DNA of 64,000 bases from Bacilli bacterium (GTDB taxonomy: Bacteria > Bacillota_I > Bacilli_A > RFN20 > CAG-826): contig JALCDB010000001.1 of NCBI GenBank assembly GCA_022641095.1, positions 174,802 through 238,801 of the forward strand, read 5' to 3'. Below the pieces are notes generated by a model. It was given only the letters and a program-made list of their open reading frames with translations, did not search any database and was not told where the DNA came from. Shown here in pieces: positions 12,170 to 49,041 of the stretch. Position numbers and translations under genes: made by a program. The first letter of the stretch is position 1; every line of letters starts with the position of its first letter.

Positions 12170-12910
12170 TCATTTGAGCTCAGCCCCGATCTTCGCGAGA
12201 AAAAAACGCTCCAAATCGATATGTTGCCTTTTGAGGGCGGCGGTTTTCTCTTGGGCCATGAGAACGCCTTTTTTAAGAATGATGACCTCATCGCAAAGAT
12301 TCTTCACGAGATCGATGATATGGCTTGAGAAAAAGACGACGTTGCCTCTTTCGGCGTGCTCCTTCATGACCTGCTTGATCTGAAAAATGGAATTCGGGTC
12401 TAGACCCGTCAGCGGCTCGTCGAGGATCAGCAGTTTCGGATTATGGCAAAGGGCGGCGATGAGGGTGATTTTCTGCTTCATGCCATGGCTATAGCTCGAA
12501 ATGGGATCATGGTAATGGCCCACCAGTCCAAGCGTCTTAAGCAACGAGGCCGTCCTTTCCTCGATTTCCTTTTTCGGCGTCTTGTATAGGCGCGCTATGT
12601 AATGGATATACTGCTCGCCCGACAGGTTCTCGAACAACGAGTAGCGGTCTGGGACGAAGCCCATGTCGCGCTTGGCGGCGATCGGTTCCTTCAAAACGTC
12701 ATGCCCGCATAAGGAGATCGCGCCTTCTTCGAACCCATGCATACCGACGACAGACTTGATGATGGTGGATTTGCCCGCCCCATTAGGGCCAAGGAAACCG
12801 TATATCTTGCCGCCGTAAAGCCTAAGGGAGAAATGCCGCACGGCGAAATCCTTGGCCGATGGATAGCGCTTGCCAAGATTTTCGATGACGAGAACGGCCG
12901 CCTCTTCCAT
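12170..12910 (-). CDS. ABC transporter ATP-binding protein
   Basis: GFLGPNGAGKST, SYSHGMKQKITLIAAL signature, LLILDEPLTGLD, SSHIIDLV. Confidence 0.93.
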   Translation of the reverse strand: MEEAAVLVIENLGKRYPSAKDFAVRHFSLRLYGGKIYGFLGPNGAGKSTIIKSVVGMHGFEEGAISLCGHDVLKEPIAAKRDMGFVPDRYSLFENLSGEQYIHYIARLYKTPKKEIEERTASLLKTLGLVGHYHDPISSYSHGMKQKITLIAALCHNPKLLILDEPLTGLDPNSIFQIKQVMKEHAERGNVVFFSSHIIDLVKNLCDEVIILKKGVLMAQEKTAALKRQHIDLERFFLAKIGAELK

Positions 12911-12912
12911 GG

Positions 12913-13413
12913 TCACTCCTTGCTGAAGTGGACAACGAGCTCCACTTGATCCTTGACCGCGTTCGGGCCGCCGTCGTTGGCGAGGCAACCGATGGTGACG
13001 AGATGGTATATCTCATCCTCCCCTTCCGCCTCGTAATCCGGCTCGACGAAAAGGAAGGCCCCTTTGTCACAAGCGGTCGGTTTCACGAAAGAATCGTTGA
13101 GGTCGACCGTGTAATAATAGGATTGGTTGGTCGCGTTTTCTGGAAGAATCTTGGTGTTATAGACGTATTCCATCGCCCGACGAGTCGCCCCTTTGGGGGT
13201 TTCGTAAGTCGTCGAAGGAACGAAATCGACCTTTTGCCTCTTCATGCCAAGATTGTCGCTATAGGCGATTTCCGAGCCATCCATCGCCAAGATATTCAGC
13301 GATGCGATGTAGACGACGTTCGTGATGTTTTCCGGCTGAACACCCATGAAGGCGATGACGGTGGTCATCGCGAAAACAACGCAGGCTATAAGGAGCATCG
13401 GACCTTTTTTCAT
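12913..13413 (-). CDS. Hypothetical anchored/exported protein
   Basis: One N-terminal TM (MKKGPMLLIACVVFAMTTVIAFMG), then about 140 aa soluble. Start overlaps the stop of the permease gene (ATGA). Confidence 0.75.
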   Translation of the reverse strand: MKKGPMLLIACVVFAMTTVIAFMGVQPENITNVVYIASLNILAMDGSEIAYSDNLGMKRQKVDFVPSTTYETPKGATRRAMEYVYNTKILPENATNQSYYYTVDLNDSFVKPTACDKGAFLFVEPDYEAEGEDEIYHLVTIGCLANDGGPNAVKDQVELVVHFSKE

Positions 13414-15095
13414 GCTTCGCCCTCCCCAAACAAATACTTCGCATAACGTAGATAACCATAGAGCGAAACGACGAAATAAAGAAAGCAAAGAACCATCAGT
13501 TTGATCGGCCCCGCCGAAAAGCCATCCTTAAGGTAAAGATAAAAGAGGATCGAGAAGACGATCGGGAGAAGGAAGGCCGCGAGAGTAATCAGAATCTCGC
13601 CCCGCATCGATTGGCTTTGGCTGCTGAGTCCTTTGCTGTGGCCTCCGCTCGCCTTGGTTATGGAGAAAAGCACATGGCCGTTATAGAGGAAAAGGGCGGC
13701 CAGGGCGAGGCACAGCGTCGAACCGGCGCCCACTCCGGCGTCATATCCGAAAAAGACAACGCTCACGATGATGGCGGCATCGCCGACGAGCGAAGGCAAA
13801 AAGGCTTTGCTATAGAGAAGGAGAGCGCTTTGGAGCGGATAGCTGACTTCAAGGGAAAGGGCCCCGTCCTCGTGGCCATAAAGCGGGGTGAGGAAACTCG
13901 AGGTGTTCAGCATCAGGAGCGAGAGGACGAGGAATTCCGTCACCTCGATAAGGATGGCTCCAAGGGTATTGGAATTGAAGGCCGAGTAGAATCGGTTAAG
14001 GACAATGGTGAGCAGCGCGATGAAAACGCAACTTCCGAAAAAAGGCATAAAGCGCGAGGGATCACGGAAGAAACCGATGATTTCTTTCTTAAAGGCACTC
14101 GCGAAAGGCGAATGCGAGAAGGAGTGGCGCCTGCTCCGAAAAAGAGCGTTCCCATCCTCGAAAGAATTGGATGCGAACTTAAGAAAAAGCGGGTTCACCG
14201 CGAACGCTGACAAAATCGCCGCCCCCACCCCAATCGCGAGCAGAATGAAGAGGGTGGCCACGCCGTTTCCGTAGAACATCATGGCTTTCGTGCCGTTTTG
14301 GCTGTAGCCGCAAACGCCTTGGCTCAACCAATAGAAGGCGGGTATCGTGCGCGCGTAACCGTTGAGAAAGGATTGGATTTTGAAGAAAATGGTGCCCCAG
14401 TTCGTGAAGACGTCGATGTGGTCGGGGACAATCGAAACGAACCAGGCGGCCAAAGCGATCAGGGCCGCATAGAGAAAGAGGTAAGTCAGAAACCGGCTCA
14501 CCGAGTGCTTCTTCGTGAAAGAAAAGAAGGCGTTAAGCGGAATCGAGACGAGGGAAGCGATCCCCAGTTCCGCGATCGTGAGAACGAGAACGGACGGGAA
14601 AAGCCACAAGATGACCCAAAGGGCGTAATGGCACGCAAAAGCGTAGCCGACGAAAATCGGGATCAGGAGAAAGATGTTCTTCACGTATTCGTAGACCGAA
14701 TAAGCGAAAACGCGCGCCATCAGCAACGTGGAGCCGTTGGTCGGATAGGTCAGCAAGACTTGGTTATCTTTCGAAAAATACAGGTCCTTAGTGAGCCCTG
14801 GGCAAAGCGAGAGGAAGCCAAAGATAAAAACCGCCGAAGCGATGAGGGAAGGGACCGTCAGAGGCACGAACTGGAGAGCGCTGAAAATAGTCAGTTTGCC
14901 CGTCAGGAAATAAAAGAGATAAAAGAGAGCGCTTATCAGCGCGAAGGCGACGAAAAAGAGGACTATGCGACCCCAGCTTTTTCGTTTCTTCTCCCGGAAA
15001 TCGACTTTGAAGCGGTTGCTGACGAGCATTGAGACGATGGCCCAAAATGACGCCTTGTCGATCACGAACCTCTCACCCCTCTTGGCGGCGCTCAT
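13410..15095 (-). CDS. ABC-2-type permease, about 12 TM
   Basis: 561 aa hydrophobic protein with two blocks of helices, coupled to ATPase genes on both sides by overlapping ends. Confidence 0.8.
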   Translation of the reverse strand: MSAAKRGERFVIDKASFWAIVSMLVSNRFKVDFREKKRKSWGRIVLFFVAFALISALFYLFYFLTGKLTIFSALQFVPLTVPSLIASAVFIFGFLSLCPGLTKDLYFSKDNQVLLTYPTNGSTLLMARVFAYSVYEYVKNIFLLIPIFVGYAFACHYALWVILWLFPSVLVLTIAELGIASLVSIPLNAFFSFTKKHSVSRFLTYLFLYAALIALAAWFVSIVPDHIDVFTNWGTIFFKIQSFLNGYARTIPAFYWLSQGVCGYSQNGTKAMMFYGNGVATLFILLAIGVGAAILSAFAVNPLFLKFASNSFEDGNALFRSRRHSFSHSPFASAFKKEIIGFFRDPSRFMPFFGSCVFIALLTIVLNRFYSAFNSNTLGAILIEVTEFLVLSLLMLNTSSFLTPLYGHEDGALSLEVSYPLQSALLLYSKAFLPSLVGDAAIIVSVVFFGYDAGVGAGSTLCLALAALFLYNGHVLFSITKASGGHSKGLSSQSQSMRGEILITLAAFLLPIVFSILFYLYLKDGFSAGPIKLMVLCFLYFVVSLYGYLRYAKYLFGEGEA

Positions 15096-17458
15096 GATTT
15101 CTCGGCCTCCAAAAAGAGTTCCTTTTCCTCAAGGCTGTCCAACTTGCTCAAAAGGACGGTTTCGGCATCGGCGCCTTTCCTCTTGCAGAGAGCCTTGATG
15201 TCCACCGTGTCCACGTAGCGGCCGCTCTTGATGATGATGACTTCATCGCAAACGGCTTCCACGATATCGATCATATGGCTCGAGAAAAAGACGATACGGC
15301 CTTCTTTGGCGATCCCCAAAAGAACTTTCTTGATCTCGTACACGCTTTCGGGGTCGACGCCCGTGAGCGGCTCGTCGAGGATGATGACTTTCGGCGAATG
15401 GACCAAAGCGCCGAGCAAAGTGATCTTTTGCTTCATGCCGTGGCTATAGGTCCGCATTGGCCGATCATAGACCTCATCAAGCGAGAGAATCGGCAAATAA
15501 TGGCCAACTAACCGTTCCCGCTCCCACGCCTTCACGCGGTAAAGACTCGCCATGTAGGAGACATATTCGCGGCCGGTGAGGCTTTCCTCCAACGCATAAT
15601 GGTCGGGGACATAAGCCATTCGGCTCTTGGCTTCGGAGGCTTCGAAGGCGATGTCGTACCCGCAGATCCTAATGGTCCCTTCCTCAAAATCGTGAAGCCC
15701 GACGGCGGCTTTGATGAACGTGCTTTTGCCCGCCCCGTTATTGCCTAAGAAACCATAGATCCTCCCAGGCGAAAGGCGAATCGAGAAATCGATGAGCGAA
15801 GGTTCTTCGTTGCCGGGATAAGTCTTGGTGACGTGGCTCGCTATCAATGAAATCGAATGGTTTGGCGTTGGCGCGAAGAGTTTCTTTCGTTCGCGGCGAC
15901 TCCTCGCTTTGTCCTTGATGGCGACTCGCTCGTCGATGATGGCGAACATGACATCATAGACGAACCACATCGCCAAGGAGAGGGCGGCATACGTGAAGAA
16001 GAACGTAAGCAGATACACCAAACGGACGGTATAGGTCGCCCCGTCAATCACGAAAGCGATGACGTTCGCTTTGTAAATGCTCTCGGCCCACGATCCGAGT
16101 TTGTCGGCGATGAAATCGCTGTTTAGAAAGAAGAAGTCGACCCCGGAATCGCCCTGTCCTTGATAATAGACGTCGATCGTGACGACAACCAGGAAATAAA
16201 TGAGGAACCCCGCCATCGAATAGAGGAAATATTTCCATTTGGGGCGCTCATAGATGCCAAGCAAAATGATGAGAATCGGCATAAAGGTCGCGTACATGTG
16301 ATTGATGTAGAACTGAAAGGTCTGGTTGGCGAAGAAAAGACGGGAACTGCTGAAATTTGGCATCAGGAGCGCGAAGAAGGCCCCGATGACGTTCACGAAC
16401 ATCGTGAAATAGAAGAGCTTGTAGTTCTTGAAAGCCAAAGTGAGCGGCATGATGTACATGGCCGTGTTGCATAGGTGAAGCGGCATGCTAGGGATGCTCG
16501 TCCAAGTGTCGTAACGATGGACGGAGGCATAGGCGAAAAGGACGCCGCTGGCGATAACGAAAAGAAAGTAGCGGCGATGGCCATAATCGAAGGGATAGAG
16601 CAAGGAGAAATAGCCGACTGGCAAGATGAACGTCAAATAGATGAACAAACGATGGGTCCAAGAGAAGTCCTTGGCAGTCGGTATATCGGTGACCTTTTCG
16701 CCAATCAGATTCTTGGGCAAATAATCGTTAATCGAGACGACGAAAAGGATAATGAGGCCCGCCACGATGGCATAGGCCTCGCTTTTGTCAACCGTGACCT
16801 TTGGGTTGACGAGCCACGCTTTGACGACGAAGCACGCCTCCAAGGCGACCTCAAGCGCAAAAAGGAAACCGCGCGGCGAAACGAACCCTTCGATATCGCC
16901 CAGCATCCCTCGCAAGAGGTTCGGGAAGAGGGCGATCGAAACGAATAGCACCGGGGCGCAAATCCATTTGACGACCGCGTCGGTCCGCGGGGTGCCCCAA
17001 AATTCATGGCCCACGATGAAGAAAACGATGACCGCTTGATAGCAAAGGAAAATGGCCCCGCTATCAAGCGAGAACGCGCTCATGATCCGCGCGGAAGTCT
17101 GTGGATCGAAAGTCTCCAAATAATCGTGACCCCAAAGGAAACGGACGATGAAGAGGAGGTTGAGGGCGACCGCAAAAGCCTCAAAGAAAAGCTTCGTGGT
17201 CTTTTCTTTGCTTGCGAATAGGGCTTTCAGTTTGCACGTCTTTTGGCCTGTTTTCTTCGCCGTGGACGCTTTTTTTTCATGAAAAGCGCGCGGCAAGAAA
17301 AGAAAAAGGCAAAGAAACGCTATGCCAGCCCCCGCAAGAACGATCTCATAGGGCCACGCCCCCGAAACGAGGGCGGACTCGACGATGGCCGAAACCACAA
17401 GGGCCAAGGAAACGATCCCTAGGGAAAACCAAAGCTTTCTGTCGCGTGATTTCAGCAT
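15092..17458 (-). CDS. YwaF/TMEM164-like membrane domain fused to an ABC ATPase domain
   Basis: N-terminal about 520 aa membrane region with PSMPLHLCNTAMYIMPLT...FYINHMYATFMPILIILLG (YwaF/TMEM164 pattern). C-terminal ATPase GFLGNNGAGKST...YSHGMKQKITLLGAL...VIILDEPLTGVD. Confidence 0.85.
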   Translation of the reverse strand: MLKSRDRKLWFSLGIVSLALVVSAIVESALVSGAWPYEIVLAGAGIAFLCLFLFLPRAFHEKKASTAKKTGQKTCKLKALFASKEKTTKLFFEAFAVALNLLFIVRFLWGHDYLETFDPQTSARIMSAFSLDSGAIFLCYQAVIVFFIVGHEFWGTPRTDAVVKWICAPVLFVSIALFPNLLRGMLGDIEGFVSPRGFLFALEVALEACFVVKAWLVNPKVTVDKSEAYAIVAGLIILFVVSINDYLPKNLIGEKVTDIPTAKDFSWTHRLFIYLTFILPVGYFSLLYPFDYGHRRYFLFVIASGVLFAYASVHRYDTWTSIPSMPLHLCNTAMYIMPLTLAFKNYKLFYFTMFVNVIGAFFALLMPNFSSSRLFFANQTFQFYINHMYATFMPILIILLGIYERPKWKYFLYSMAGFLIYFLVVVTIDVYYQGQGDSGVDFFFLNSDFIADKLGSWAESIYKANVIAFVIDGATYTVRLVYLLTFFFTYAALSLAMWFVYDVMFAIIDERVAIKDKARSRRERKKLFAPTPNHSISLIASHVTKTYPGNEEPSLIDFSIRLSPGRIYGFLGNNGAGKSTFIKAAVGLHDFEEGTIRICGYDIAFEASEAKSRMAYVPDHYALEESLTGREYVSYMASLYRVKAWERERLVGHYLPILSLDEVYDRPMRTYSHGMKQKITLLGALVHSPKVIILDEPLTGVDPESVYEIKKVLLGIAKEGRIVFFSSHMIDIVEAVCDEVIIIKSGRYVDTVDIKALCKRKGADAETVLLSKLDSLEEKELFLEAEKS

Positions 17459-17492
17459 ATGTGAAGTGGAAACGAACTTGGGGGCGATCGAA

Positions 17493-20288
17493 TCAACTGG
17501 CCGAATGGGTCTCGAGGCCCATCACGATTCCATAAGCCGAGGAACCGATGTAATTAGTCGGATCGGTTACCGCATCGGATTGAAGCGTGTCGTAATAGAT
17601 GGAGATGTACTTGCTACTGACGACGTTGTGTCTCTCGTCATTGGTGAAGTTCCCATAATCCGCCGCCGCCGAGCCGTCAACCATGTGCCGGGAATTGTAG
17701 AGCGCCGAACCGGTGCAAATCATGAACTGATCGTCGGACAAGGCCAAAGAGTCGCCGGTTCCATGGGTTTTGAAGACGGCCGGGCGAGCGGATCCGTCAG
17801 CGACGTACTGCTGCAAAAAGGTGTTCATGAAATCATAGTTTTGAACACCTGCGGCGAGGCCTCCGCTCATATAAGTGGAAATGTCGGCTTTGTCGCCATA
17901 GTCAATCATGTTCACGCCATCGACGACGGTCGGCCAACTGGTTACGTCGTCGTCCCAGTATTTGCTGAGGTCACCGCTTATGGCGCCTTCGAGCGAGGAG
18001 CCGCCATAAAAGGCCGGATCGTTGCCGGCAAGGCTGCCGGACAACCCCATGTTTAGGGTTAGGAAATCGTATTTCGTGACATTGCCTTCCTTCGCACTGA
18101 AGGTGACGCCAAAGGTCGGCTCGAAAAGACTGGTCGAGACGGTTCCGAGACTCGTAATGATGGATTCCGCGTTATAAAGAGCGAACCAGCCTCCTTGGCC
18201 AGTCACGTGATTCTCCAAATGGGAAGAGCTGTCGGCGCGAAACCATGTGCCACCGTATGCGGCCCTCGTAAGGTCGTTGGGATCGCCGCTTGAAGGCTGC
18301 GGGTTGGAAACGAACGATGACGATTGGCTGATGACCAAAGGCCCACCGGCGTTCATGAGTTCGCTATGGATGCAATAAGTCGCGGAAGCGTCATAGTTGA
18401 AAATCATCGTCGAATAGGTGTCGTGCATGCGACTGTCGATGACCCGAAGGTTCGGGTCGCGGACGGCCGGATCGCTGGCATCGCTCGTATAGCCGGCATA
18501 ACCGGCGTTGACGACCGTGGTGAAGAAGTGGTTGACGTTGATGTTCTTCATGACGACCCAATTGAACGACTTTTCAAAGAGGATGCCCGATTCGTTGTCC
18601 CACTTGCTGTCGCCATCGACGCCCTGGTTGCCATAAACGGCGATGTCCTGAAAAAGCGTTCGGTGCGCGCCGTCGCTGTCGTTTCGTTCGGATCCTTCAA
18701 GGCTCTCGTCCGTGAACGTGAAGAATAAGGATGCGTGCGGCTCGACCGGCGTCGTCTGATCGTGGTTGTGGCCGTTGTTTCTGGAGCCGGAGGTTTCGGC
18801 ATCGCTCACGATGAAAGGCAAATTGCCAAGGCTTATCTTGTTAAGGTTGCCATAAACCTCAAAAGTCGGATGCCCGTTGTTCAGTTCGTGATAATAGAAA
18901 TAAGTCCAGTCTTTGAGGGTGCCGACGATCGGATAGCCATCGTTGCCGCTATCGACCGGCTCGCCCGTTTGCCAAATGAAGCTCGTCGGTATGCTGTCAG
19001 CGCCGATGGTGATGTTATTTTGGATGATGACTTGGTCCATGATGGACTCCGGAAGGTTGTTGGCTCGTTTAAAATCCAAGATGTCGTTTGTCGCGTAAGT
19101 CGTGACATTGGTGTTGCAAACCATGAGTTGGGCCGCCGTCGTGATGTTATAGGCGCGCAACAAATCGAAGGCATAGACGATGTCCGGAAACGATTCGGAG
19201 GCGCCATCACCATAGCGGAACGTCAGACTATAGGCGCCCGCGACGACGTTGTCGTTGAATTTGATGGAGCCGTTGCTCTTAAGGAGAGTGAGCGCGTCCG
19301 AGCTGAAATAATCGTCAAGATCGAGGACGATGCCCTTGGAATTCTTTAGGATGAAAGAGACGCCTTCCGGCATATAAGAGTCGAAAGTGACGATGTTTCC
19401 GGTTTTGGCGTCGTATTCCTTGACGACCGGGCAAAGGCTCAGGGCGTTCAGGGTGCCGAGTTTGAAGGTCGCGGAATCCATGAAGGTCTCGCGGCCATCA
19501 AGGGTATCGTCTACCGCCTTATTGGCGTTTTCGAAAGCGACCCAACGGGCACTTGCGCTCCAATTGGTGAGATGCGTGACCTCGCTCACTGTGTAAGCCA
19601 AGGAATCGGCGAACGGGCCGATCCCGTTGACCTTATCCTCATAAGTGACCGTGAAGATGCCGTCCGTCGTGACCACGCTCGTGTCAATCGCGCCATAGGA
19701 GATAGTGTCGGCGTTATCCTTGGCGGTAAGGATGCTCAGCACTTCGCCGTCGGCGTTTTCGAGTTTGACGCGAAGATCGGAGTAAGACGGGACTTCGTTC
19801 TTGAGATACGAAGTTTGGAAGCCATTGGCGATTCTGATTTGCGTCACGACCTTCTTTTGGTTGGCGACGACGGTGTAGGCAATGCTATCGCTGAAGGTCG
19901 CGGACGGATGGGATGCGGCGAACATGACGATGAAGTTGCCCATCCCCACTTTGGATGTATCGATGGTGCCAAGGGTGAACGCCGCGGCGCTTTGCGCGTA
20001 ATAATAGGTATCGAGTTCGGCGTCGTGGGCGTTATACGTTTTGATCGCCAAGTTCGCGTAGTCCACCACGTCATCGGCTTGATAAGAGGTCACGATTGAG
20101 TCGGCGACGATTTTGATATGATCGACAAGGGTGAGATCCTCGGCGCTTGATTTCGAAGAGGAAGCGGAAGAAAGGGAACCGGACGACGAACTCGCGACCG
20201 ACGAAGAGCCATTGCCGCAACCGGCCAACGCCAACGCCAACATGCCTGCCGCAAGGAATCCAAACGGTTTCAAAACAGATTTATTCAT
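17493..20288 (-). CDS. Very large Ser-linker lipoprotein of unknown function
   Basis: MNKSVLKPFGFLAAGMLALALAGCGNGSSSVASSSSGSLSS lipobox plus Ser linker. About 930 aa; upstream of, and codirectional with, the YwaF-ABC gene (34-nt gap). Confidence 0.8.
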   Translation of the reverse strand: MNKSVLKPFGFLAAGMLALALAGCGNGSSSVASSSSGSLSSASSSKSSAEDLTLVDHIKIVADSIVTSYQADDVVDYANLAIKTYNAHDAELDTYYYAQSAAAFTLGTIDTSKVGMGNFIVMFAASHPSATFSDSIAYTVVANQKKVVTQIRIANGFQTSYLKNEVPSYSDLRVKLENADGEVLSILTAKDNADTISYGAIDTSVVTTDGIFTVTYEDKVNGIGPFADSLAYTVSEVTHLTNWSASARWVAFENANKAVDDTLDGRETFMDSATFKLGTLNALSLCPVVKEYDAKTGNIVTFDSYMPEGVSFILKNSKGIVLDLDDYFSSDALTLLKSNGSIKFNDNVVAGAYSLTFRYGDGASESFPDIVYAFDLLRAYNITTAAQLMVCNTNVTTYATNDILDFKRANNLPESIMDQVIIQNNITIGADSIPTSFIWQTGEPVDSGNDGYPIVGTLKDWTYFYYHELNNGHPTFEVYGNLNKISLGNLPFIVSDAETSGSRNNGHNHDQTTPVEPHASLFFTFTDESLEGSERNDSDGAHRTLFQDIAVYGNQGVDGDSKWDNESGILFEKSFNWVVMKNINVNHFFTTVVNAGYAGYTSDASDPAVRDPNLRVIDSRMHDTYSTMIFNYDASATYCIHSELMNAGGPLVISQSSSFVSNPQPSSGDPNDLTRAAYGGTWFRADSSSHLENHVTGQGGWFALYNAESIITSLGTVSTSLFEPTFGVTFSAKEGNVTKYDFLTLNMGLSGSLAGNDPAFYGGSSLEGAISGDLSKYWDDDVTSWPTVVDGVNMIDYGDKADISTYMSGGLAAGVQNYDFMNTFLQQYVADGSARPAVFKTHGTGDSLALSDDQFMICTGSALYNSRHMVDGSAAADYGNFTNDERHNVVSSKYISIYYDTLQSDAVTDPTNYIGSSAYGIVMGLETHSAS

Positions 20289-20495: not shown

Positions 20496-21431
20496 TCAGT
20501 TTTTGACGTTCACAGGCGCGATTCCGCCCTCGGCTTTGCCTTTTCCGATCGGGTAAAGGATCAGATCGAAAACGAAGAAAGAGGAAGTCGTGAAAAGAGC
20601 CCCGAAGGAAACGTCGCTCAGGAAATGGGCGCCAATGAGCATTCGGCTATAAGCGACTAGCGCCGCCCAGATGAAGCCAATCGCGAAAAGAAGGACGTCG
20701 TGCTTGGCTAGACGGCTGTCAAGCCGCGGCAGGCAACCCGCGAGGAGGAGGGCGACGGAAGCGCTCGTGACGTGGCCTGAGGGGAAGCTCTTGAACTCCT
20801 CGGCGAGGCCCGCGTCGGTCCCTAAGACGGTGGCTCGCAAATCGTTGGCGCCCTCCCACCAATTGTGAAAGTCGCCCAAAACCGGAACCACCGACCCGCT
20901 CGTCTCGCCGACGAGCCAGCGGTACCGCGGACGGGCATCGAATTTCTTGACGAGGGTCGTCAGCAGAAGGGCGACGAAAACTGCCGCTATCATGCAAAGA
21001 AGGTCCCTCCGCCAATGGGGATCGTCGCATTTCCTGGCGAAAAAGAAGCCGCCCGAATAAGCCAGCCCGCACAAAAGGAAACTGATGGGCCAACCCAAGT
21101 ACCACATGCCCTCGACGTCATAGGCGTTGCGCGAGATGATGGCTTTGCCCGCGTAATAGATGCCGAAAGCCGTCACTATGACGCCGATGGCGATGACGAT
21201 AATCTTGCGCCAAAGGACTTTGTCGTCCTTGAGCTCCAGATAGAGAAGCAAGCCGCCGATGAAGCCAAGCCCCGCATAGCAAGGCAACTCCCCAACCGCG
21301 GCCATGAAAACCCCAAAGCCGTTGCGGCCATCGTATAAGGCTCGAGCGATCTGCAAATCATATAAAGACCCGAAGGCAATCCCCAGCACGATGACGACGA
21401 ACACCGGAACGAAAAGCCATTTCTTGCGCAT
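20496..21431 (-). CDS. PAP2-family phosphatase membrane protein
   Basis: KKFDARPRYRW...FKSFPSGHVTSASVALLLAG...VAYSRMLIGAHFLSDVSFGAL (KxxxxxxRP, PSGH, SRxxxxxHxxxD). Confidence 0.93.
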   Translation of the reverse strand: MRKKWLFVPVFVVIVLGIAFGSLYDLQIARALYDGRNGFGVFMAAVGELPCYAGLGFIGGLLLYLELKDDKVLWRKIIVIAIGVIVTAFGIYYAGKAIISRNAYDVEGMWYLGWPISFLLCGLAYSGGFFFARKCDDPHWRRDLLCMIAAVFVALLLTTLVKKFDARPRYRWLVGETSGSVVPVLGDFHNWWEGANDLRATVLGTDAGLAEEFKSFPSGHVTSASVALLLAGCLPRLDSRLAKHDVLLFAIGFIWAALVAYSRMLIGAHFLSDVSFGALFTTSSFFVFDLILYPIGKGKAEGGIAPVNVKN

Positions 21432-21516
21432 AACGGTATCTCCCTCGCTTCAGGTTACTAGGTTGATTATAAGCCGCCGGGACCTCTGGAAAAACACGTT
21501 TGTTGATATCTTTGCC

Positions 21517-21552
21517 AAAAAGACGCCGGATTGAGCTTCCCGGCGTCTTTTG
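21517..21552 (-). terminator. Bidirectional-looking terminator hairpin
   Basis: AAAAGACGCCGGattgagcttCCCGGCGTCTTTT. Confidence 0.75.
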
Positions 21553-22662
21553 CTATTTCCGTTTCGGCGAATCGGGCCTCTTTGAGATGACGAGTTGGTT
21601 GAATGGGATGTCGATGCCATTATCGCTCATGAGGGTGAAAATCCTCTCATTCAACTCTCGGGTGACCCCAAACTTGTTCTCCTCTTTGACCGAGGCGATG
21701 ACGCGAAGCAAAATGCCCGAATCCTGAAACTCCTGAACGCCGAGGAATTTCGGGGTCCCGATAACCCCTTTTGTCTCTTTGCCGATTTTGGGCAGGTTGT
21801 CGTCAAGGAGCTTGCGGACCGCCTTGAGGTCTTGATCGTAGTCGACTGGGATGTCCACCACCGCGAACGAGTTCTCTTGACTCAGGTTGATCGCGGTCGT
21901 GATCTGGGAATTGTGAATGGTCTTGATGTTGCCGGCGGCATCGGTGATTTTGGTCGCGGCGAGTCCAATCTCGGTGACGACGCCGCGGAATTCGTCGATG
22001 ACGACCGTGTCGCCCACCTCGAACTCCTGCTCAAAGACGATGGCGAGGCCTCCGATGACGTCGGCAATAAGGGATTGGGCCCCAAGGCCGATGACGAGGG
22101 CGACGATGCCGGCGCTGGCGACGAGGGCGGCCGTGTTAACGCCCCAAACGCCCAAGATGACGAAAATAAGGACGATCCAACTCACGTATTTTATGGTGCT
22201 ATTGACGAGTTTGCCGATCGTGATGGCCTTTTTGCTCGCGTGGCCGGTCGAAAAAGTGATGATGAAACGAAGCAGGCGCGAGATGCCGATGAAAAGGAAG
22301 AGATAGAAAATGGTCTGCAGGATCGGGCTCGCCTGGTCGACGAGCCAATTGCCCGTGACCGGGGCTTCGTTGCTGAATATTTTGGCGAAATAGCTTCCGG
22401 ACCACCACGTCGAGGCGTAAAGCCCGCAAATAACGTATGCCGTCGCAAGGGCCAAAAAAACCCATGCGGCAACGGTTTTAGCTCGCTGCTTATTGTCCAT
22501 TTCGCGCCACGTCGGGGTCTGGGAGCGGGAGCGGCCGTTCAGGTTTTTGCCGTAAAGGATGGCATCGGTCGCCGCCTTGGCCCGCGTCCTTGATCGGGCC
22601 CCGACCTCCTTAGCTTCCTCTTTGACCTTTTTGAGCCCGTCTTTCTTTTTTTCGTCTTTCAT
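21553..22662 (-). CDS. MscS-family mechanosensitive channel
   Basis: AALVASAGIVALVIGLGAQSLIADVIGGLAIVFEQEFEVGDTVVIDEFRGVVTEIGLAATKI, characteristic MscS pore/beta region. Confidence 0.93.
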   Translation of the reverse strand: MKDEKKKDGLKKVKEEAKEVGARSRTRAKAATDAILYGKNLNGRSRSQTPTWREMDNKQRAKTVAAWVFLALATAYVICGLYASTWWSGSYFAKIFSNEAPVTGNWLVDQASPILQTIFYLFLFIGISRLLRFIITFSTGHASKKAITIGKLVNSTIKYVSWIVLIFVILGVWGVNTAALVASAGIVALVIGLGAQSLIADVIGGLAIVFEQEFEVGDTVVIDEFRGVVTEIGLAATKITDAAGNIKTIHNSQITTAINLSQENSFAVVDIPVDYDQDLKAVRKLLDDNLPKIGKETKGVIGTPKFLGVQEFQDSGILLRVIASVKEENKFGVTRELNERIFTLMSDNGIDIPFNQLVISKRPDSPKRK

Positions 22663-40465: not shown

Positions 40466-40501
40466 ATAGGGGGCGAAGCAGCGTGATTGCTTTGCCCCTA
40501 T
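40466..40501 (+). other. Intercistronic hairpin without U-tract
   Basis: ATAGGGGGCGAAGCA-gcgtgat-TGCTTTGCCCCTAT between the lipoprotein and GH81 genes. Confidence 0.75.
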
Positions 40502-40534
40502 TCAATGCCATCGATCGATAAAAAGGAAAAACCT

Positions 40535-43495
40535 ATGAACAAAAACACAAAGAAATTCGTCGTCTCCGCCTTGTTGGCCTTAACCATGGCCGGAACGGTT
40601 TCCTGCTCCTGCTCCAGCGTCGGAGGATCTTCGGAATCGAGCGCGGGAGAAAGCCAATCGGCCGGAACCTCGTCCGAGGACGGAACTTCCGCCTCTTCAA
40701 GCGCCTCTTCCTCGAATAGCGACTCGTCCGCCTCTTCAAGTTCAAGCGGCTCTTCTTCCGGCTCAACGGGATCGTCCTCCGACTCCTCTTCGAGCGGCTC
40801 ATCGAGCTCATCTTCCTCCTCAAGCGGGGAAATCTCGCTCACGGGCGTCGAAAACGCCTCGACCCCGAAAGGCCGTTATTTCGATCCCCTGAAGGGGGTC
40901 AGCGCGAAAGGAGCCGACGGAGCCGACATCACGAGCGCGATCGATATTTCCGGCAACGTCGACTACAGCATCGCCGGCGATTACCCTCTCGTTTACACCG
41001 TCTCGGATAGCGGCAAGAAAGTCACCAAGAACCGGACCGTCACCGTCACGAACGACGGCTTAGGAAGCTATACCCGCAAGAAAGGATATGGCGAAGAAAA
41101 GACCATTGACGTCGGCAAGGGATCATATCTGGAAGGCAACAGCAACCTTATCGATTTCCGACCCGCCGACCCCTCATTCGTCGACGACGAATTGATTGAC
41201 GAGGCCCCGCTTCCGACCAATCGGTGGTGGAGCGGATTCGAAACCGCCAATTACGGCGGGGTGACGCTCGCGGCCACCAATCCCCTTTACGTGAAACTCA
41301 GCCCCTCGGGGGTCTCACTCACCAACAAAGGCACCGGCTTCACCCAGTATTTCACGGTCAGCGACACCTTCGGGGCCGCGCAGACCACCATGAGCCAATT
41401 CGCCCCCACTTTCAGCGACATCAGCGTCGCCTCCGCCTCAATGGGGTCCAGCCCCATCAGCAAAGTCATCGGCTACAGCGAGAACTCCGTTCGCCTTTCC
41501 ATGCGGAACAGTTCCGCCGGAGCCGATGAGTTGGTGGCCAACCTCGTGCAGGGATCGCCTTTCGTCTTCTTTGAGAGCGACTCCCACACCGTCAGCTTGA
41601 ACCTGCGCCTTGACGCGGTCACGAAACCCTATGTCTTCTATGACTTCTCCGGCAACGTCATCACCGACTCCTACACCGGAGACGGCATCGTGATCGAATT
41701 GCCGCAGGCCCATTGCGGCTACGCGACGACTTATCCTAACGTCGGCATTGGGGCCGCCCTTTATAAGGACTTCTATTACATCGTCAACGCCCCTAAGGGG
41801 TCCTCCTTCACTTTCTCGCGGCTCAAACACCCTTCAAACGAGTACAAAGACCATGTGGCCATCACGCTCAACGGATCGAATTACCTCTCCGTGGGGATGC
41901 TGCCGAGCCTCAGCGAGGCAAGCCTCTACCATGCGGCCGGCTACTCCTTCATCGACGCGGCCGATTCCTCCTTCAGCATCGACAAGGCGAAAGCCGAAGT
42001 CACCACCGCTTTCCATGAAACCGTCCAGCATGTCGACGGCGGAAGCGAAGAGCCGCTTCTGGCCCTGCTGCCGCACCAATGGAAGCATAGCGGCGCCGCT
42101 TTGACATCCAGCTCTTTCAAGACCATGCGGGGAACCAACAAGGTCCTTAAAGGCCGCACGTTCGCGACAACGAATGAGTTCCGGGGTCTTCTCCCCGGTT
42201 TCACAACCCCGCTCAATGGCGCTTTTAGCGCCGCGGACGCCAAAACCTACGCGACCAATTTGCTTAACGCCACCGTGCCGACGGGAAGCTTCGAAGATGG
42301 GGGCAAGAACTTCATCGACGCCCCAGGGCCATACTGGAACGCCAAAGCGCTTTACCCCCTTTCGCAAGCCATCTTGGCGATGAAGCAGCTCGGGGAGACC
42401 GAACTGACGGGCCAACTCGTCGCCCGCCTCAAGGCCGACATGGTCGATTGGTTCACCTATTCGGGGACCGATGACGACCGCTTCCTCTATTACGACGAAG
42501 TCTACGGCACGATGTATTACAGCAACGACGACTTCTCGACCGGCAGCCGCCTGAGCGACCACCACTTCACTTCGGGATATCTCGTTTACGCCTCGGCCGT
42601 CCTCTCGATGGTCGATGCCTCCTTCCTCAGCGATTACGGCGATATCGTGACCCTTTTGGCCCGCGATTACGCGGATTATCAGCGTAACGACGGAACCTAT
42701 CCTTATCTCCGCTCCTTCGACGCTTGGGCCGGCCATAGTTGGGCCGACGGCAGGGGCGACTTCGGCGATGGGAACGACGAGGAAAGCTCAGGCGAATCGC
42801 TGAATTCCTGGACCGCCGCTTACCTATTCGGAACGGTGTCGGGCAACCAGGGCATGGTCGACGCCGCCATTTATGGCTACACGACCGAGATGGAATCCGT
42901 GAAGCAATACTGGTTCAACTACGATGGCGACAATTGGGATGCCGGGCTTTCGAACCACACCCACGTCGTCGGCATCGTCTGGGGGGCCAAGAACGACTGC
43001 GCGACGTGGTTCGGCAGCAACCCCGAATTCATCTATGGGATCCATTGGCTTCCCACGGGCGAATATCTCACGGGCTATACTCTTGGAGACAAGGACGCCG
43101 CCACCTTCACGACCATCTATGACGAAATGCTCTCCAAGCTCAAAGGCACCATCCGCACCTGGTGGAGCAACATGTGGGCCATGCAGGCCCTCATCGATCC
43201 CGACGGCGCCGTCAGCGCCTTCGACAGCTCCAAGATCCTCGGCGACGATTATCCGTATGAACTCACGGGTTCGTACTGGATGGTGAACGCCCTCGCGGGG
43301 CTGGGGCGCAAGAGCCTCAACGATTACGCCGAACTGAAGGAGGGAATCGCCGCCTCGGTCTACGAAAAAGGCGGGACGAAGACCCTGCTGGCCTATAACA
43401 GCACCGCCTCCGCCCAAAACGTTCAGGTCGTGGTGAACGGCAACGTCGTCACCAAAACCATAGCCGCCAACAGCTACGCCAACTACAGCCTTTAA
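40535..43495 (+). CDS. GH81 endo-beta-1,3-glucanase, lipoprotein
   Basis: Lipobox GTVSCSC plus Ser linker; LPTNRWWSGFETANYGGVTLAATNPLYVKLS; WAGHSWADGRGDFGDGNDEESSGESLNSWTAAYLFG (GH81 catalytic region). Confidence 0.92.
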   Translation: MNKNTKKFVVSALLALTMAGTVSCSCSSVGGSSESSAGESQSAGTSSEDGTSASSSASSSNSDSSASSSSSGSSSGSTGSSSDSSSSGSSSSSSSSSGEISLTGVENASTPKGRYFDPLKGVSAKGADGADITSAIDISGNVDYSIAGDYPLVYTVSDSGKKVTKNRTVTVTNDGLGSYTRKKGYGEEKTIDVGKGSYLEGNSNLIDFRPADPSFVDDELIDEAPLPTNRWWSGFETANYGGVTLAATNPLYVKLSPSGVSLTNKGTGFTQYFTVSDTFGAAQTTMSQFAPTFSDISVASASMGSSPISKVIGYSENSVRLSMRNSSAGADELVANLVQGSPFVFFESDSHTVSLNLRLDAVTKPYVFYDFSGNVITDSYTGDGIVIELPQAHCGYATTYPNVGIGAALYKDFYYIVNAPKGSSFTFSRLKHPSNEYKDHVAITLNGSNYLSVGMLPSLSEASLYHAAGYSFIDAADSSFSIDKAKAEVTTAFHETVQHVDGGSEEPLLALLPHQWKHSGAALTSSSFKTMRGTNKVLKGRTFATTNEFRGLLPGFTTPLNGAFSAADAKTYATNLLNATVPTGSFEDGGKNFIDAPGPYWNAKALYPLSQAILAMKQLGETELTGQLVARLKADMVDWFTYSGTDDDRFLYYDEVYGTMYYSNDDFSTGSRLSDHHFTSGYLVYASAVLSMVDASFLSDYGDIVTLLARDYADYQRNDGTYPYLRSFDAWAGHSWADGRGDFGDGNDEESSGESLNSWTAAYLFGTVSGNQGMVDAAIYGYTTEMESVKQYWFNYDGDNWDAGLSNHTHVVGIVWGAKNDCATWFGSNPEFIYGIHWLPTGEYLTGYTLGDKDAATFTTIYDEMLSKLKGTIRTWWSNMWAMQALIDPDGAVSAFDSSKILGDDYPYELTGSYWMVNALAGLGRKSLNDYAELKEGIAASVYEKGGTKTLLAYNSTASAQNVQVVVNGNVVTKTIAANSYANYSL

Positions 43496-43733: not shown

Positions 43734-45662
43734 ATGCATAAGTCCAAGAAACTGTTTACGATTCTATCTAGCGCGGCGCTGGCTTTAACGGTCGGCGGAG
43801 TCGCCATTGGCGTCGGCAGCGGAAAAGTCCGAGCCGCCGATGCCGAAGGAACCGCCACGATCGGTTCGCTGAGCGACTTCAACAGCGTGTTCGATGGAGG
43901 CGCCGGAAGCAGTGCCAAAGATATCACATTAACAGCCGACATCGATTTGGGTGGCATGTCATTTGGCATGGCTAAAATGGCAGGCGAATATACCGGGACT
44001 TTTGACGGCGGCGGCCACAAAATAACCAATTTCCTTGTCGGCGCAAATGCCGGTTTGTTCAACATTTCGTCCGGAACCATCAAAAATTTGACGCTTGAAT
44101 GCACCGCTAACGCCAACGGAACCTCGCCTTTGGCGTTTCAAAATAACGGTTCTATCACCGGATGTCACGTCGTTGAGACGGTCTCGTCCGCCTTAAACAC
44201 CCTTTCGTGCTATTTCTGCAACGGAACCGGAACGATCTCCGACTCCTACGCCCACTACATCTTCAATGCCTCCTGCCAAGGAACTAATTCCGTATTCCCT
44301 TTCTATCGCGAAGGCTCGCAGACGATCACCGACTCCTATTACACAAAGAACGACGCAACGACCGGCATAGCCATCGCAGCGAACGCTGGAGCCAGCGAAA
44401 CGGAACAGGTTTGCGGCGTGTCCATAGCCGACAAGATTATCACCATGGGCACCGATGGAACCCTTTCCGCTTCCACCTACGGATCGACCTATTCCGCGAT
44501 CGCGTGGACAATTGACGATGCTGGGGTTGCGACGCTGTCGAACGAAACGACCGACACGGTTACCATTTCGGGCGTAGCCGCCGGCACCGCGACGCTAACA
44601 TGCACTTATACATCCACTTTGGGAAGTTTCGCGAGTTCATCGACCATCACCGTACAAAACAGTACGGCCGTTTCGGACGTTAGCGTTTCCCCCACATCAA
44701 CATCTATATACGAAGGAGCCACCACACCCCTCACCGCTGCCCTGACCGGCAATGTTTACGACCACGTCGCATGGACAAGCGATGACGAAAGCCATGCGAC
44801 CGTCGCGGGAGACGGTTTAACCGCCACCGTAACCGGCGTCGCCGCCGGTTCGGCCAATGTCACGATTACCGTCTACGATTCAAGCAACGGCGTTTTGGCG
44901 AGCGCCTCATGCGCCGTGACGGTTAACGCCGCCGTGACGTTCGACCTCTACCTCGCCGTCAATTCATCCTTCTCTTGGACCGCCGAAACGGCCATCTTCT
45001 ACGGAGGAGGAATCGCCGAAACGTCTTTGGCCATGACCAATACCGGATACACGCTTCGCTTAAACGACGCCACCAATTCGAATACGCTGACCGAATATGA
45101 CCTTTATCATTTGAGCGTCAACGCTTCGGCCCTCGGCATGGTTGGCAAAACTGGCGTCTATATGCAAGCCAGCAACGGACAGAACGCTGGGCGTTGGGGC
45201 TCGGGCTACAACGTCGATTCCTACGTCAATGGCTTTGCGCTTTACACCCCTTTCCCTGCATCGGGCGCCCTTCAGAGCATTTGCACGGGTAACGGAGCCA
45301 AAGAAGGCATCGCTTGGGCCACCGGGCTTACCGATTGGAGAGACGCCAACGATTCGATCTGCTATCTCCTCGATGACGAGAACGAAGCCAAGAAGACGGC
45401 TATCCTCGATTCCTATAACGCCCTCTCGAGCAATGCGAAGACCTTCTTAGGGACCTTCACCGACGATACCGCCGATTACGATTCGACTTACGGCACCACG
45501 ATTTCCTATCTAAGCGCCGGCGGAAATCCCGCCATCGCCGTCTTCTCCGAGCTCCCCGACACCAAGTACACCATCCTCTTCGTCACCATCGGCGTCGCCG
45601 CGTTGGCGGTCGGCGGTTACTTCATCGTCAGGGCCGCGAGGAAAAGGAAAGGCAAAAACTGA
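43734..45662 (+). CDS. Secreted, membrane-anchored protein with GLUG-like and Big_2-like (Ig) domains
   Basis: MHKSKKLFTILSSAAL signal, GTFDGGGHKITNFLVGANAGLFN, SPTSTSIYEGATTPLTAALTG..HVAWTSDDESHATVAGDGLTATVTGVAAGSANVTITV, C-term TM plus RAARKRKGKN. SD AGGAGGG. Confidence 0.8.
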   Translation: MHKSKKLFTILSSAALALTVGGVAIGVGSGKVRAADAEGTATIGSLSDFNSVFDGGAGSSAKDITLTADIDLGGMSFGMAKMAGEYTGTFDGGGHKITNFLVGANAGLFNISSGTIKNLTLECTANANGTSPLAFQNNGSITGCHVVETVSSALNTLSCYFCNGTGTISDSYAHYIFNASCQGTNSVFPFYREGSQTITDSYYTKNDATTGIAIAANAGASETEQVCGVSIADKIITMGTDGTLSASTYGSTYSAIAWTIDDAGVATLSNETTDTVTISGVAAGTATLTCTYTSTLGSFASSSTITVQNSTAVSDVSVSPTSTSIYEGATTPLTAALTGNVYDHVAWTSDDESHATVAGDGLTATVTGVAAGSANVTITVYDSSNGVLASASCAVTVNAAVTFDLYLAVNSSFSWTAETAIFYGGGIAETSLAMTNTGYTLRLNDATNSNTLTEYDLYHLSVNASALGMVGKTGVYMQASNGQNAGRWGSGYNVDSYVNGFALYTPFPASGALQSICTGNGAKEGIAWATGLTDWRDANDSICYLLDDENEAKKTAILDSYNALSSNAKTFLGTFTDDTADYDSTYGTTISYLSAGGNPAIAVFSELPDTKYTILFVTIGVAALAVGGYFIVRAARKRKGKN

Positions 45663-45680
45663 TTAGCCGCCCTTAATAAA

Positions 45681-45716
45681 AGGCGTTCCTCATCCAAAAA
45701 GGAGGAGCGCCTTTTC
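45681..45716 (+). terminator. Rho-independent terminator
   Basis: AGGCGttCCTCatccaaaaaGGAGGagCGCCTTTTCT. Confidence 0.75.
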
Positions 45717-45756
45717 TAAACTCCGCATTCCCCCGCCAAAAGGTTACAATGAATCG

Positions 45757-46251
45757 ATGAAACAGTCCCTTATCTCACTGGAAAATCTGACAGCCGCCAA
45801 TCGAAAGAACGCATGGCTCATCGCTTTCGAGGCTTTCCTCATCGCGGCTCTAGGGGCCGCCACCGCTTTGATATACGTTTGCCAAACCAGAGCCACCCAA
45901 ACCATTTTCATTTGGGTGGGATCCATCATTTATATTCTTATTCTAACCATTTTCTTCTATGTTCTTTTCATGATGATCCGACCGCTAGGCAGTTACCGCC
46001 GTTTCATGAGAAGGGCGCTTTCCAAACCGCGTCCGCTCAATGACGTCAGCGTCCTTTCCTTGAGCGAGGAGAGGGAAACCTACAAAGGCTTCCCCTGCTT
46101 CTCCCTCCGCGTCAAAGAGCTGGACGAAGGCACCATTTGGAACGTCCGTTACGAATCTTCGGCGCCGATCGACGCCAAGATAGGCGGCATCTACGAAATC
46201 GAAACCTACGATGAGGTCCTCTGCGCGATAAAAGAGGAGAAACGGCCATGA
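45757..46251 (+). CDS. Hypothetical 2-TM membrane protein
   Basis: MKQSLISLENLTAANRKNAWLIAFEAFLIAALGAATALIYV..., first of a translationally coupled operon. Confidence 0.75.
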   Translation: MKQSLISLENLTAANRKNAWLIAFEAFLIAALGAATALIYVCQTRATQTIFIWVGSIIYILILTIFFYVLFMMIRPLGSYRRFMRRALSKPRPLNDVSVLSLSEERETYKGFPCFSLRVKELDEGTIWNVRYESSAPIDAKIGGIYEIETYDEVLCAIKEEKRP

Positions 46252-46913
46252 AGGTCGGCGTCACCAAAGAGAAAATCGGCGACTTCTTCACGAGTTACGG
46301 CTGGGTCGAACTGCTACTTGCCATCGTGAGCGTGGTGGCCTGGTACTGGCCCATAACCGCCATCGACCAGATCCGGAGCGACGAACGGATAAATTTCTTC
46401 ATCGAATGCTATGGTTTCAAAGACGAGAAATTCCAAAGCCAATTGCAGGATGATTTGGCCGATAATGGGGTTGAGGAGGTCAATGTCTATTCTTATTCCC
46501 CAAGCGATTCCCTCATCAACAGCTATTACGAGGCCTTCGGAACGAAAAGCGACTTCCTTTTTCTCTTATCAAGCGACCTCGACACGATGTTCGAGAAACC
46601 CAGCGCCGCCCTTCTTAGGGAATTCCTCGTGTGGGGGGATGCGCTGAAAAAAGAGGTTATGCCAAATTTCTCCGCAGCCTCGTTCTACGAGGTCGAAGGG
46701 GTTCCTTACGCCCTCAAGGTTTATGATCCCGACAATGCTTCCTATAGCCAAAGGATCGAGGATTTCGCCGTTTTCCATACCGATGAAAAGAGCGAGGCCG
46801 TCTACCTCCTCCTCAACGCGACGACCCCTAATTACGGTTCCTACGTCGACGGATCGGCGACCTCCAACGCCGTAGCGGCCTTATCTATGCTCATCGAAAG
46901 GTATTATTTATGA
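46248..46913 (+). CDS. Hypothetical membrane-anchored extracytoplasmic protein
   Basis: One N-terminal TM (WVELLLAIVSVVAWYWPITAI) and a 190-aa soluble domain; overlaps neighbours by 4 bp. Confidence 0.75.
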   Translation: MKVGVTKEKIGDFFTSYGWVELLLAIVSVVAWYWPITAIDQIRSDERINFFIECYGFKDEKFQSQLQDDLADNGVEEVNVYSYSPSDSLINSYYEAFGTKSDFLFLLSSDLDTMFEKPSAALLREFLVWGDALKKEVMPNFSAASFYEVEGVPYALKVYDPDNASYSQRIEDFAVFHTDEKSEAVYLLLNATTPNYGSYVDGSATSNAVAALSMLIERYYL

Positions 46914-47728
46914 GAGAACGCAAACGAAAAGTCGAAAAAACCGAGGAGGCCAATCTGCCCAGCACCCGCTGGCAACTGCTCAAAGACACGCTCCGCTGGC
47001 GGTTTTGGTCCCTCGTCGTCATCAGCCTCATGGCCATCGTTTTTTACGTTCCCTCTTTCGCTTGGATGAGTTTCGCCAGTATGTCCGGCCTCCTAGAACC
47101 CGACAACTTCTACTCGATTTTGCTCACCCACGCGGTGAATGCCGTTTTCTTGGGCGTATTCGGCCTTGGGCAAGCCGGCCTTTTCTATTTCCTGAAGCGG
47201 CTCGCGTGGGGGGAAGGGGCCAGTATCCCATCCGATTTCTTTGAGGGCATCAAGAGGAATTGGAAGGCCTTTTCCCTTCTTTTCTTCGTCATGGGGCTCC
47301 TTTACGCAATCTTGGAACTTGACCTCGCCTCCATCGGCAATTCCGGCTGGAATTCCATCGCCATCGGGGCCGCGACCGGGGCAAGTTATGCCGTTTTCTT
47401 CCTTTTTGTGGCCGCCATCCTCATAACTCTCGTCGAAAGCGTCATCTACAGCTCGCCCCTCTTCTCCCTCTTCGTCAACGCGTGGCGGTTCCTTATCGGG
47501 GCTTTCCTCACGAACGTCCCCGTCTTCTTGGCCTATTTGCTGCCCCTCATCCTTTACGAGTTCATCCCCAGCTACATCGCCCAGTGGGTCGCCATTCTCT
47601 TCGAGGGGGTCTTCTATCTCGGTTTCAGCGGCTTCTTCCTCACCATCTATTGCCACTCCCTCTTCGACAAAACCATCAACAAACGCCAATTCCCGGAAAT
47701 CGCCCGCAAGGGGCTCCGCAAAGAATGA
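46910..47728 (+). CDS. Polytopic membrane protein, possibly DUF624/YesL-like
   Basis: RWQLLKDTLRWRFWSLVVISLMAIVFYVPSF, about 5-6 TM, located between glycan genes. Confidence 0.65.
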   Translation: MRERKRKVEKTEEANLPSTRWQLLKDTLRWRFWSLVVISLMAIVFYVPSFAWMSFASMSGLLEPDNFYSILLTHAVNAVFLGVFGLGQAGLFYFLKRLAWGEGASIPSDFFEGIKRNWKAFSLLFFVMGLLYAILELDLASIGNSGWNSIAIGAATGASYAVFFLFVAAILITLVESVIYSSPLFSLFVNAWRFLIGAFLTNVPVFLAYLLPLILYEFIPSYIAQWVAILFEGVFYLGFSGFFLTIYCHSLFDKTINKRQFPEIARKGLRKE

Positions 47729-49041
47729 GATACGAGCTTTGCCTCAGCCAAATCGGCGGCCCATATTGGGAGAAAAAGAGCTTTTCCGAAGGCGGGGGCG
47801 AGCCGGTTTCCCTCGATCCGTCGAAACCTCGGCAAACCATCATCGGCTTCGGGGGCGCCTTCACGGAAGCCGCCGCCCATGTCTACGCATCGATGAGCCC
47901 CGCGCTGAAGAGGCGGACGATCGCCCTTTGCTTTGGGGAAGACGGGCTCCGTTACAACCTCGGGAGGACGACGATCGGCTCCTGCGACTTCTCGCTTTCC
48001 CAATACGATTACGCGAGGAAAGACGATCTTTCGGACTTCTCCTTACGCCACGACGAAAAGGAAATCATCCCCTTTCTTAAGGATGCCGAAAAGGCAAGGC
48101 CGTTGCGCTTATTGGCTTCTTCATGGTCGCCTCCCGCCGAATGGAAAACGAGCGGAAGCAAGCTTCAGGGCGGGCGCTTGAAAAAGAATCGCTACGGCAT
48201 CTACGCCGCTTACCTCGCCAAATACGTCGAAGGCATGACGAAAATCGGACTGCCAATCGAATTCATCACCCCCCAAAACGAGCCGTTGGCCACCCAAACG
48301 TGGGAAAGCTGCCTCTATGGACCCGCGGAGGAGGCCCGACTGGCACTCGAACTGAAAAAGCGGATGCCAGACATCAAGATCCTGGCCTATGACCACAATC
48401 GGGACAAACTATGGGACCGGGAAAGGGATATCTTCCGCCAACGCGAGGTCAAGGAGGCCGTCTACGGAATGGCCTATCATTGGTATTTCCCCGAGGGCCA
48501 CGAGGAAATCGCCAAATGCCTGGCCTCTTTCCCCGACAAGCCCCTCATCCAAACCGAAAGCTGCGTCGAGTTGCTGAATCTTAATCGCGAGGACCCCACC
48601 GCCGCGATCGGGAACCCAAAAGGCATGAGACGCTATGCCAAAGACCGTCTTGAGGATCTTCGAAACGGATCGTCCGGCTTCATCGACTGGAACCTCCTGC
48701 TCGACCTGAAGGGCGGGCCCAATCACGCCGGCAATTACTGTGAGGCGCCCCTTATGAGCGACGGGAAGCGCCTTATCGTGAACCCCTCCTACTACGCGAT
48801 CAAGCACCTTTCGCGTTTCATCGATCCGAATTCCCGACTCATCCCATCGGGTTTCCCCGTGGGAGTCCTTGGGGCGGCTTTCCTGAACCCCGATGGCGGC
48901 CTTTCCCTCGTGATGCTTAACGAAGGAGCGGGGAAAGCGATTTCTTTATTCATTGAAAACCACCAGTGTTCATGCTATTTTAATAAAAACTCCATCTGTT
49001 CAATACGCATATGGCAAACCTTGAAGCAAACTAAAAAATGA
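47725..49041 (+). CDS. GH30-family glycosidase (cytosolic)
   Basis: IIGFGGAFTEAAAHVY, LRYNLGRTTIGSCDFS, SWSPPAEWKT, FITPQNEPLATQTWESC (acid/base), KPLIQTESCVE (nucleophile). No signal peptide. Confidence 0.9.
   Translation: MRYELCLSQIGGPYWEKKSFSEGGGEPVSLDPSKPRQTIIGFGGAFTEAAAHVYASMSPALKRRTIALCFGEDGLRYNLGRTTIGSCDFSLSQYDYARKDDLSDFSLRHDEKEIIPFLKDAEKARPLRLLASSWSPPAEWKTSGSKLQGGRLKKNRYGIYAAYLAKYVEGMTKIGLPIEFITPQNEPLATQTWESCLYGPAEEARLALELKKRMPDIKILAYDHNRDKLWDRERDIFRQREVKEAVYGMAYHWYFPEGHEEIAKCLASFPDKPLIQTESCVELLNLNREDPTAAIGNPKGMRRYAKDRLEDLRNGSSGFIDWNLLLDLKGGPNHAGNYCEAPLMSDGKRLIVNPSYYAIKHLSRFIDPNSRLIPSGFPVGVLGAAFLNPDGGLSLVMLNEGAGKAISLFIENHQCSCYFNKNSICSIRIWQTLKQTKK

Follow-up and report, generated by a model that had tools for sequence, protein, structure and literature searches.

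The NosDFY system combines an ABC-2 type ATP-binding cassette (ABC) transporter with NosD, an extracytoplasmic right-handed beta-helix protein, and contains no acyltransferase. EcsAB, considered here together with PptAB and known as an exporter of linear peptides (PMC7157817), has neither an acyltransferase nor an anchor protein or a beta-helix lipoprotein. The nearest functional precedent for joining acylation to export is the Aat system (AatPABCD, CexE/Aap), in which the acyltransferase AatD cooperates with an ABC exporter, acylating the lipoprotein CexE before its ABC-driven secretion (PMC7943197); the parts of this Gram-negative system are separate proteins, AatD being Lnt-like (a C-N hydrolase) and AatP LolCE-like. 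Acyltransferases of another type form the ATGY superfamily, to which belong TMEM164, a cysteine-dependent acyltransferase (PMC13276253), YwaF, and LhaT, which acylates lipoprotein N-termini outside the membrane (PMC12345273); the known members of this group are stand-alone proteins. Here we report that a 64,000-nucleotide stretch of the genome of a Bacilli bacterium (contig JALCDB010000001.1, positions 174,802 to 238,801; hereafter "the window") carries at positions 12170–20288 five consecutive minus-strand genes for a surface lipoprotein, a TMEM164/YwaF-ABC fusion, a permease, an anchored protein and a second ABC ATPase (ATP2). None of Aat, NosDFY and EcsA has an acyltransferase–ATPase fusion, and the operon type is conserved and, as far as the literature was searched, undescribed, each of its component families being already known; as a preliminary description of this DNA had supposed, no published account was found for TMEM164/YwaF with ABC transporters, for TIGR02206 or for PF16949.

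The 788-residue fusion protein (15092–17458, minus strand) was predicted in that description to join a YwaF/TMEM164 membrane domain to a complete ABC ATPase, and a profile search against PF14808 had been set beforehand as the test. The search gave a clear match at residues 265–458 (E 5.8e-21; 75.4 bits versus a curated Pfam cut-off of 25), and the same protein matches ABC_tran (PF00005) with E 1.8e-23, so that the prediction is borne out. The protein consists of a seven-helix N-terminal part (residues 1–262), the TMEM164 core, a transmembrane (TM) helix with linker (480–527) and the nucleotide-binding domain (NBD; 535–788). It has in common with TMEM164, YwaF and LhaT the PF14808 fold, the P-L-H-L-C motif, found where expected at residues 326–330, and two conserved histidines, but differs from them by the additional N-terminal membrane part and by the fused ATPase. 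Within the membrane domain, the N-terminal half shows no detectable origin by duplication of the TMEM164 half (hhalign probability 2.4%), and all matches listed in PDB structure searches with the fusion fell on the NBD and none on the TMEM164 half.

The predicted active site of the TMEM164 core, H269, C330 and H387, is retained by 59 of the 61 family proteins, fused and split, across classes, and the three residues occur in stand-alone TMEM164-type relatives as well (20/20, 18/20 and 20/20, respectively); such near-invariance suggests that catalysis is under selection in most members. When the loop charges are averaged over the family they alternate, with the predicted helices, as the positive-inside rule demands, the NBD being placed inside and the PLHLC loop outside. 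In the AlphaFold2 model (mean pLDDT, the predicted local distance difference test score, 85) the PLHLC loop and H269 would thus face outward, as would the outer half of the H387 helix, and the ATPase would lie in the cytosol, an orientation of the active site that agrees with the action of LhaT on the outer face of the membrane. Proteins of the TMEM164 type occur widely on their own in the class, a match being present in 208 of 395 genomes and six or seven matches in some of them.

To collect relatives of the fusion, 84,980 species genomes were scanned, the 80 best hits being kept, and more loci were added from the window's own GTDB family. The resulting neighbourhood comparison, which the preliminary description had proposed, reveals a recurrent operon in 61 acyltransferase-bearing loci of Bacilli and Clostridia. 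The two domains are fused in more than 50 of these, which rules out that the fusion is an assembly artefact; in six others (L040, L041, L044–L046 and L059) adjacent but separate genes encode the TMEM164 protein and the ATPase. The core comprises four genes, for the fusion, the permease, an anchor with an immunoglobulin-like (Ig-like) domain and the beta-helix lipoprotein, and where the flanks are long enough to show it, the genes nearly always run fusion, permease, single-TM protein (~130–310 amino acids) and large lipoprotein (~400–2000 amino acids). This four-gene order recurs across classes, whereas in the clade of the window (the window, L104, L105, L119, L120, L123 and L124) the lipoprotein gene comes first. 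The hosts, dozens of genomes in all, are gut bacteria of Bacilli and Clostridia. The phage-related collection gave one match, to the NBD only, so that there is no sign of a viral module. The window's genome contains a second, four-gene copy without ATP2 (L103; contig C4, ~45425–47785), whose fusion is 46% identical to that of the window.

A beta-helix is encoded in 53 of the 61 acyltransferase loci, while the 27 related loci that have NBD and permease but no acyltransferase all lack one; no probability is attached to these counts because the loci are phylogenetically related. In six of the eight exceptions the contig or the locus stops ahead of the lipoprotein gene or within it, and two (L032 and L042) are real. 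Taken with the giant Ig-like protein of the acyltransferase-free loci, these numbers mean that acyltransferase and beta-helix travel together, atop a more general ABC-anchor unit. Acyltransferase-free loci in which a giant Ig-like protein (~800–2060 amino acids where complete) accompanies NBD and permease were seen at L047, L049, L051–L054, L057, L060, L061, L067–L069 and L077, and are apparently common in Clostridia.

The lipoprotein of the window (17493–20288, minus strand, ATG at 20288) has the Ser-rich linker already noticed and a length of 931 residues rather than 930. It is built from a signal peptide with a lipobox (...LALAGC24), the linker, Ig-like modules and a C-terminal right-handed parallel beta-helix (~379–899). 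The lipobox cysteine is kept in 97% of 38 relatives, proteins that are otherwise very diverged. The best structural matches of the beta-helix (VIA-align) are Rhombotarget A (Z 13.6) and, with Z 12–13, K1 capsule lyase, pectate lyases and AlgE4; the conserved positions of the lipoprotein are mostly Gly and Asn, and since the catalytic residues of these lyases and of the epimerase are not evident among them, we claim no enzymatic activity for the protein.

The 561-residue permease (13410–15095, minus strand) belongs to the ABC-2 type, as first proposed, PF16949 (ABC_tran_2) matching 31 of 50 aligned relatives (best E 2.1e-14); its family shows about 13 hydrophobic peaks and not the approximately 12 TM segments initially counted. 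No MacB, FtsX or EcsB family appears among the Pfam matches of the 50 permeases, and no sequence relative of the permease was found in the PDB. The anchored protein (12913–13413, minus strand, 166 amino acids) has one TM helix and, by alignment, an extracellular Ig-like domain of Big_2 type, Big_2 being matched by 5 of 38 relatives (best E 1.8e-24). From the lipoprotein gene to ATP2 the five genes are separated, as previously stated, by 34 nucleotides, two ATGA overlaps and 2 nucleotides, and a convergent plus-strand gene ends at 12118, just past the ATP2 stop at 12170, which marks ATP2 as the end of the unit. A consensus promoter scan gave fewer promoter-like sites than in shuffled sequence and none above chance; since no promoter stands out, it is from the spacing that the genes appear to be co-transcribed as one operon. 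Directly upstream, on the same strand, lie genes for a PAP2 phosphatase and an MscS-type channel (20496–22662), with no link to the operon seen in relatives, and elsewhere in the window (40487–43495) a 1002-residue protein combines a GH81 glycosidase domain with a surface Ig-like domain.

ATP2 (12170–12910, minus strand, 246 amino acids) occurs, among the loci examined, in the window only and is absent even from the congeneric operons L119–L124. As a core component it is therefore rejected, and the five-gene system of the preliminary description holds for this locus while its fifth gene falls outside the conserved system. ATP2 is probably a duplicate of the family's NBD, because in the tree it groups with the fused NBDs of its own clade (99% by SH-aLRT, the Shimodaira–Hasegawa-like approximate likelihood ratio test), although the tree program flags possible attraction between the two long branches; it is 58–60% identical to the fused NBDs of L103–L105 versus 49% to the adjoining one. 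The latter has a long branch and departs at four positions from residues that the other 55 aligned NBDs share without exception, with all its motifs kept. The likeness of the two ATPases noticed at the outset is real (both contain YSHGMKQKIT and NGAGKST), and both have intact Walker A, Walker B, signature and H-loop. A heterodimer of ATP2 and the fused NBD, also proposed originally, is plausible, in that it fits the drift of the fused NBD and the affinity of ATP2 for its own clade without proving it, but a gene confined to the window cannot define the system.

That the operon specifies an acyltransferase-coupled ABC-2 export machine, in which an outward-facing Cys/His enzyme acylates a substrate handled together with a beta-helix partner, has in our estimate an even chance of being correct. 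In such a complex the Cys330/His387 (plus His269) active site of the TMEM164-like domain would be open to the outer leaflet, from the phospholipids of which an acyl chain would be taken, as TMEM164 does, and handed to an acceptor. The permease, driven by the NBDs (presumably a dimer of fusion proteins in the relatives and a fusion–ATP2 heterodimer in the window), would deliver or extract a lipid-linked substrate, and the Ig-like anchor and beta-helix lipoprotein, as the extracytoplasmic part of the machine, would receive or hold it. In favour of this reading are the presence of PF14808 and ABC_tran in one polypeptide, the recurrence of fused and split versions, the near-invariant active site, the alternating loop charges, the gene order shared between classes, the fold of the beta-helix and its association with the acyltransferase, the single anchor–beta-helix protein of L036, and the activities of TMEM164 and LhaT.

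Besides the relatedness of the loci mentioned above, several observations weigh against this machine. The permease of the window taken alone has no Pfam match, and the model of the lipoprotein, Ig-like modules followed by beta-helix, is of only moderate confidence (pLDDT 71). In the acyltransferase-free relatives NBD and permease are often followed by a giant TM-anchored Ig-like protein akin to the anchor and, because such simpler loci exist, the transporter does not need the acyltransferase. Finally, both copies of the operon in genome G027 (L106 and L107, with two tandem lipoproteins each) have lost C330 and H387 and kept lipoboxes, ABC motifs and beta-helix lipoproteins, so that catalysis is dispensable there; the tree rejects a grouping of the two copies (approximately unbiased test, p 0.013, carried out after the pattern had been seen), which makes two independent losses likely.

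The G027 copies also bear on the question of the acceptor. By analogy with AatD and with the modification of lipoprotein N-termini by LhaT, the TMEM164 domain could N-acylate the operon's own lipoprotein after its processing by Lgt and LspA, the ABC permease then extracting or releasing the product at the surface. The persistence of the lipobox cysteine in so divergent a family, the co-occurrence of beta-helix and acyltransferase and the presence of Lgt and LspA in all seven genomes tested, the window's included, all speak for this possibility, whereas L106 and L107 have lipoboxes without the catalytic pair and, conversely, L036 keeps C330 and H387 with anchor and beta-helix merged in one TM-anchored protein devoid of lipobox. 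Moreover PcrB (PF01884), which in the LhaT pathway makes the lipid acetyl donor, was not detected in the same seven genomes, that of the window being 88.8% complete. As for the Aat system itself, none of the five proteins of the window has a C-N hydrolase (Lnt-type) Pfam match and the operon pairs a TMEM164-type enzyme fused to the ATPase with an ABC-2 permease, so that the parts of the two systems do not appear, at the level tested, to be homologous. Because lipobox and catalytic residues are uncoupled in L036, L106 and L107, the lipoprotein N-terminus is hardly the sole acceptor and to read the enzyme as a dedicated lipoprotein N-acyltransferase is not the most economical choice; we regard it as unlikely. 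As acceptor, an exported lipid or glycan is more probable than the N-terminus of the operon's own lipoprotein, a site within the beta-helix protein being another possibility, and the handling of lipids or lipoproteins, as first suggested, is advanced here as a hypothesis.

A second alternative is that the beta-helix lipoprotein and the Ig anchor are permanent subunits moved mechanically by the ABC transporter, as in NosDFY, with the TMEM164 domain in a mainly lipid-sensing or structural capacity. The beta-helix partner recalls NosD, and the NBD has NosF among its close structural neighbours (Z 28); L036 encodes anchor and beta-helix as a single protein, catalytically dead copies persist in G027, and NBD, permease and giant Ig-like protein are retained in the acyltransferase-free relatives. 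No copper context is seen, and no NosD family occurs among the 25 Pfam families shown of the 31 matched by lipoprotein relatives (the generic Beta_helix being found in 4 of 38). The similarity to NosF is generic to the NBD fold, and the near-invariance of H269, C330 and H387 across classes speaks for a catalytic role in most members; this alternative seems to us quite improbable. Even less credit can be given to an ordinary ABC-2 exporter of peptides, drugs or glycolipids with coincidental neighbours and an independently acting TMEM164 domain, for while the NBD belongs to the widespread EcsA/GldA/DrrA type, with EcsA as the closest PDB structure (9a6w chain B, Z 31.4, 28% identity), the gene fusion, the order fixed over 61 loci and the association of acyltransferase with beta-helix speak against coincidence.

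Many of the hosts apparently have no cell wall: the penicillin-binding transpeptidase PF00905 was found neither in the 88.8% complete genome of the window nor in five of six relatives, which suggests a lineage without peptidoglycan, and losses of peptidoglycan have been reported in related orders (PMC10868615). The core operon is present also in G005, a genome with transpeptidases. Wall-less bacteria must make their surface of membrane lipids, lipoproteins and glycolipids, and the operon links an acyl-transfer enzyme to a pump powered by ATP and to a surface protein dedicated to it. We propose tentatively, and with rather less than even confidence, a distinct envelope machine in which the ATPase of an ABC transporter is covalently tethered to an outward-facing TMEM164-family acyltransferase that acylates a surface substrate offered to it by a dedicated beta-helix lipoprotein, a fused acylation-export system of Gram-positive-derived and wall-less bacteria for which there would be no described counterpart. 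If true, this would represent an undescribed way of coupling lipid chemistry to export and would offer a testable context for the bacterial TMEM164-type proteins, several of which occur in some of the genomes searched. It may also bear on how surface molecules are acylated in the absence of Lnt in low-GC Gram-positive bacteria and mollicutes, a process that to our knowledge is only partly explained.

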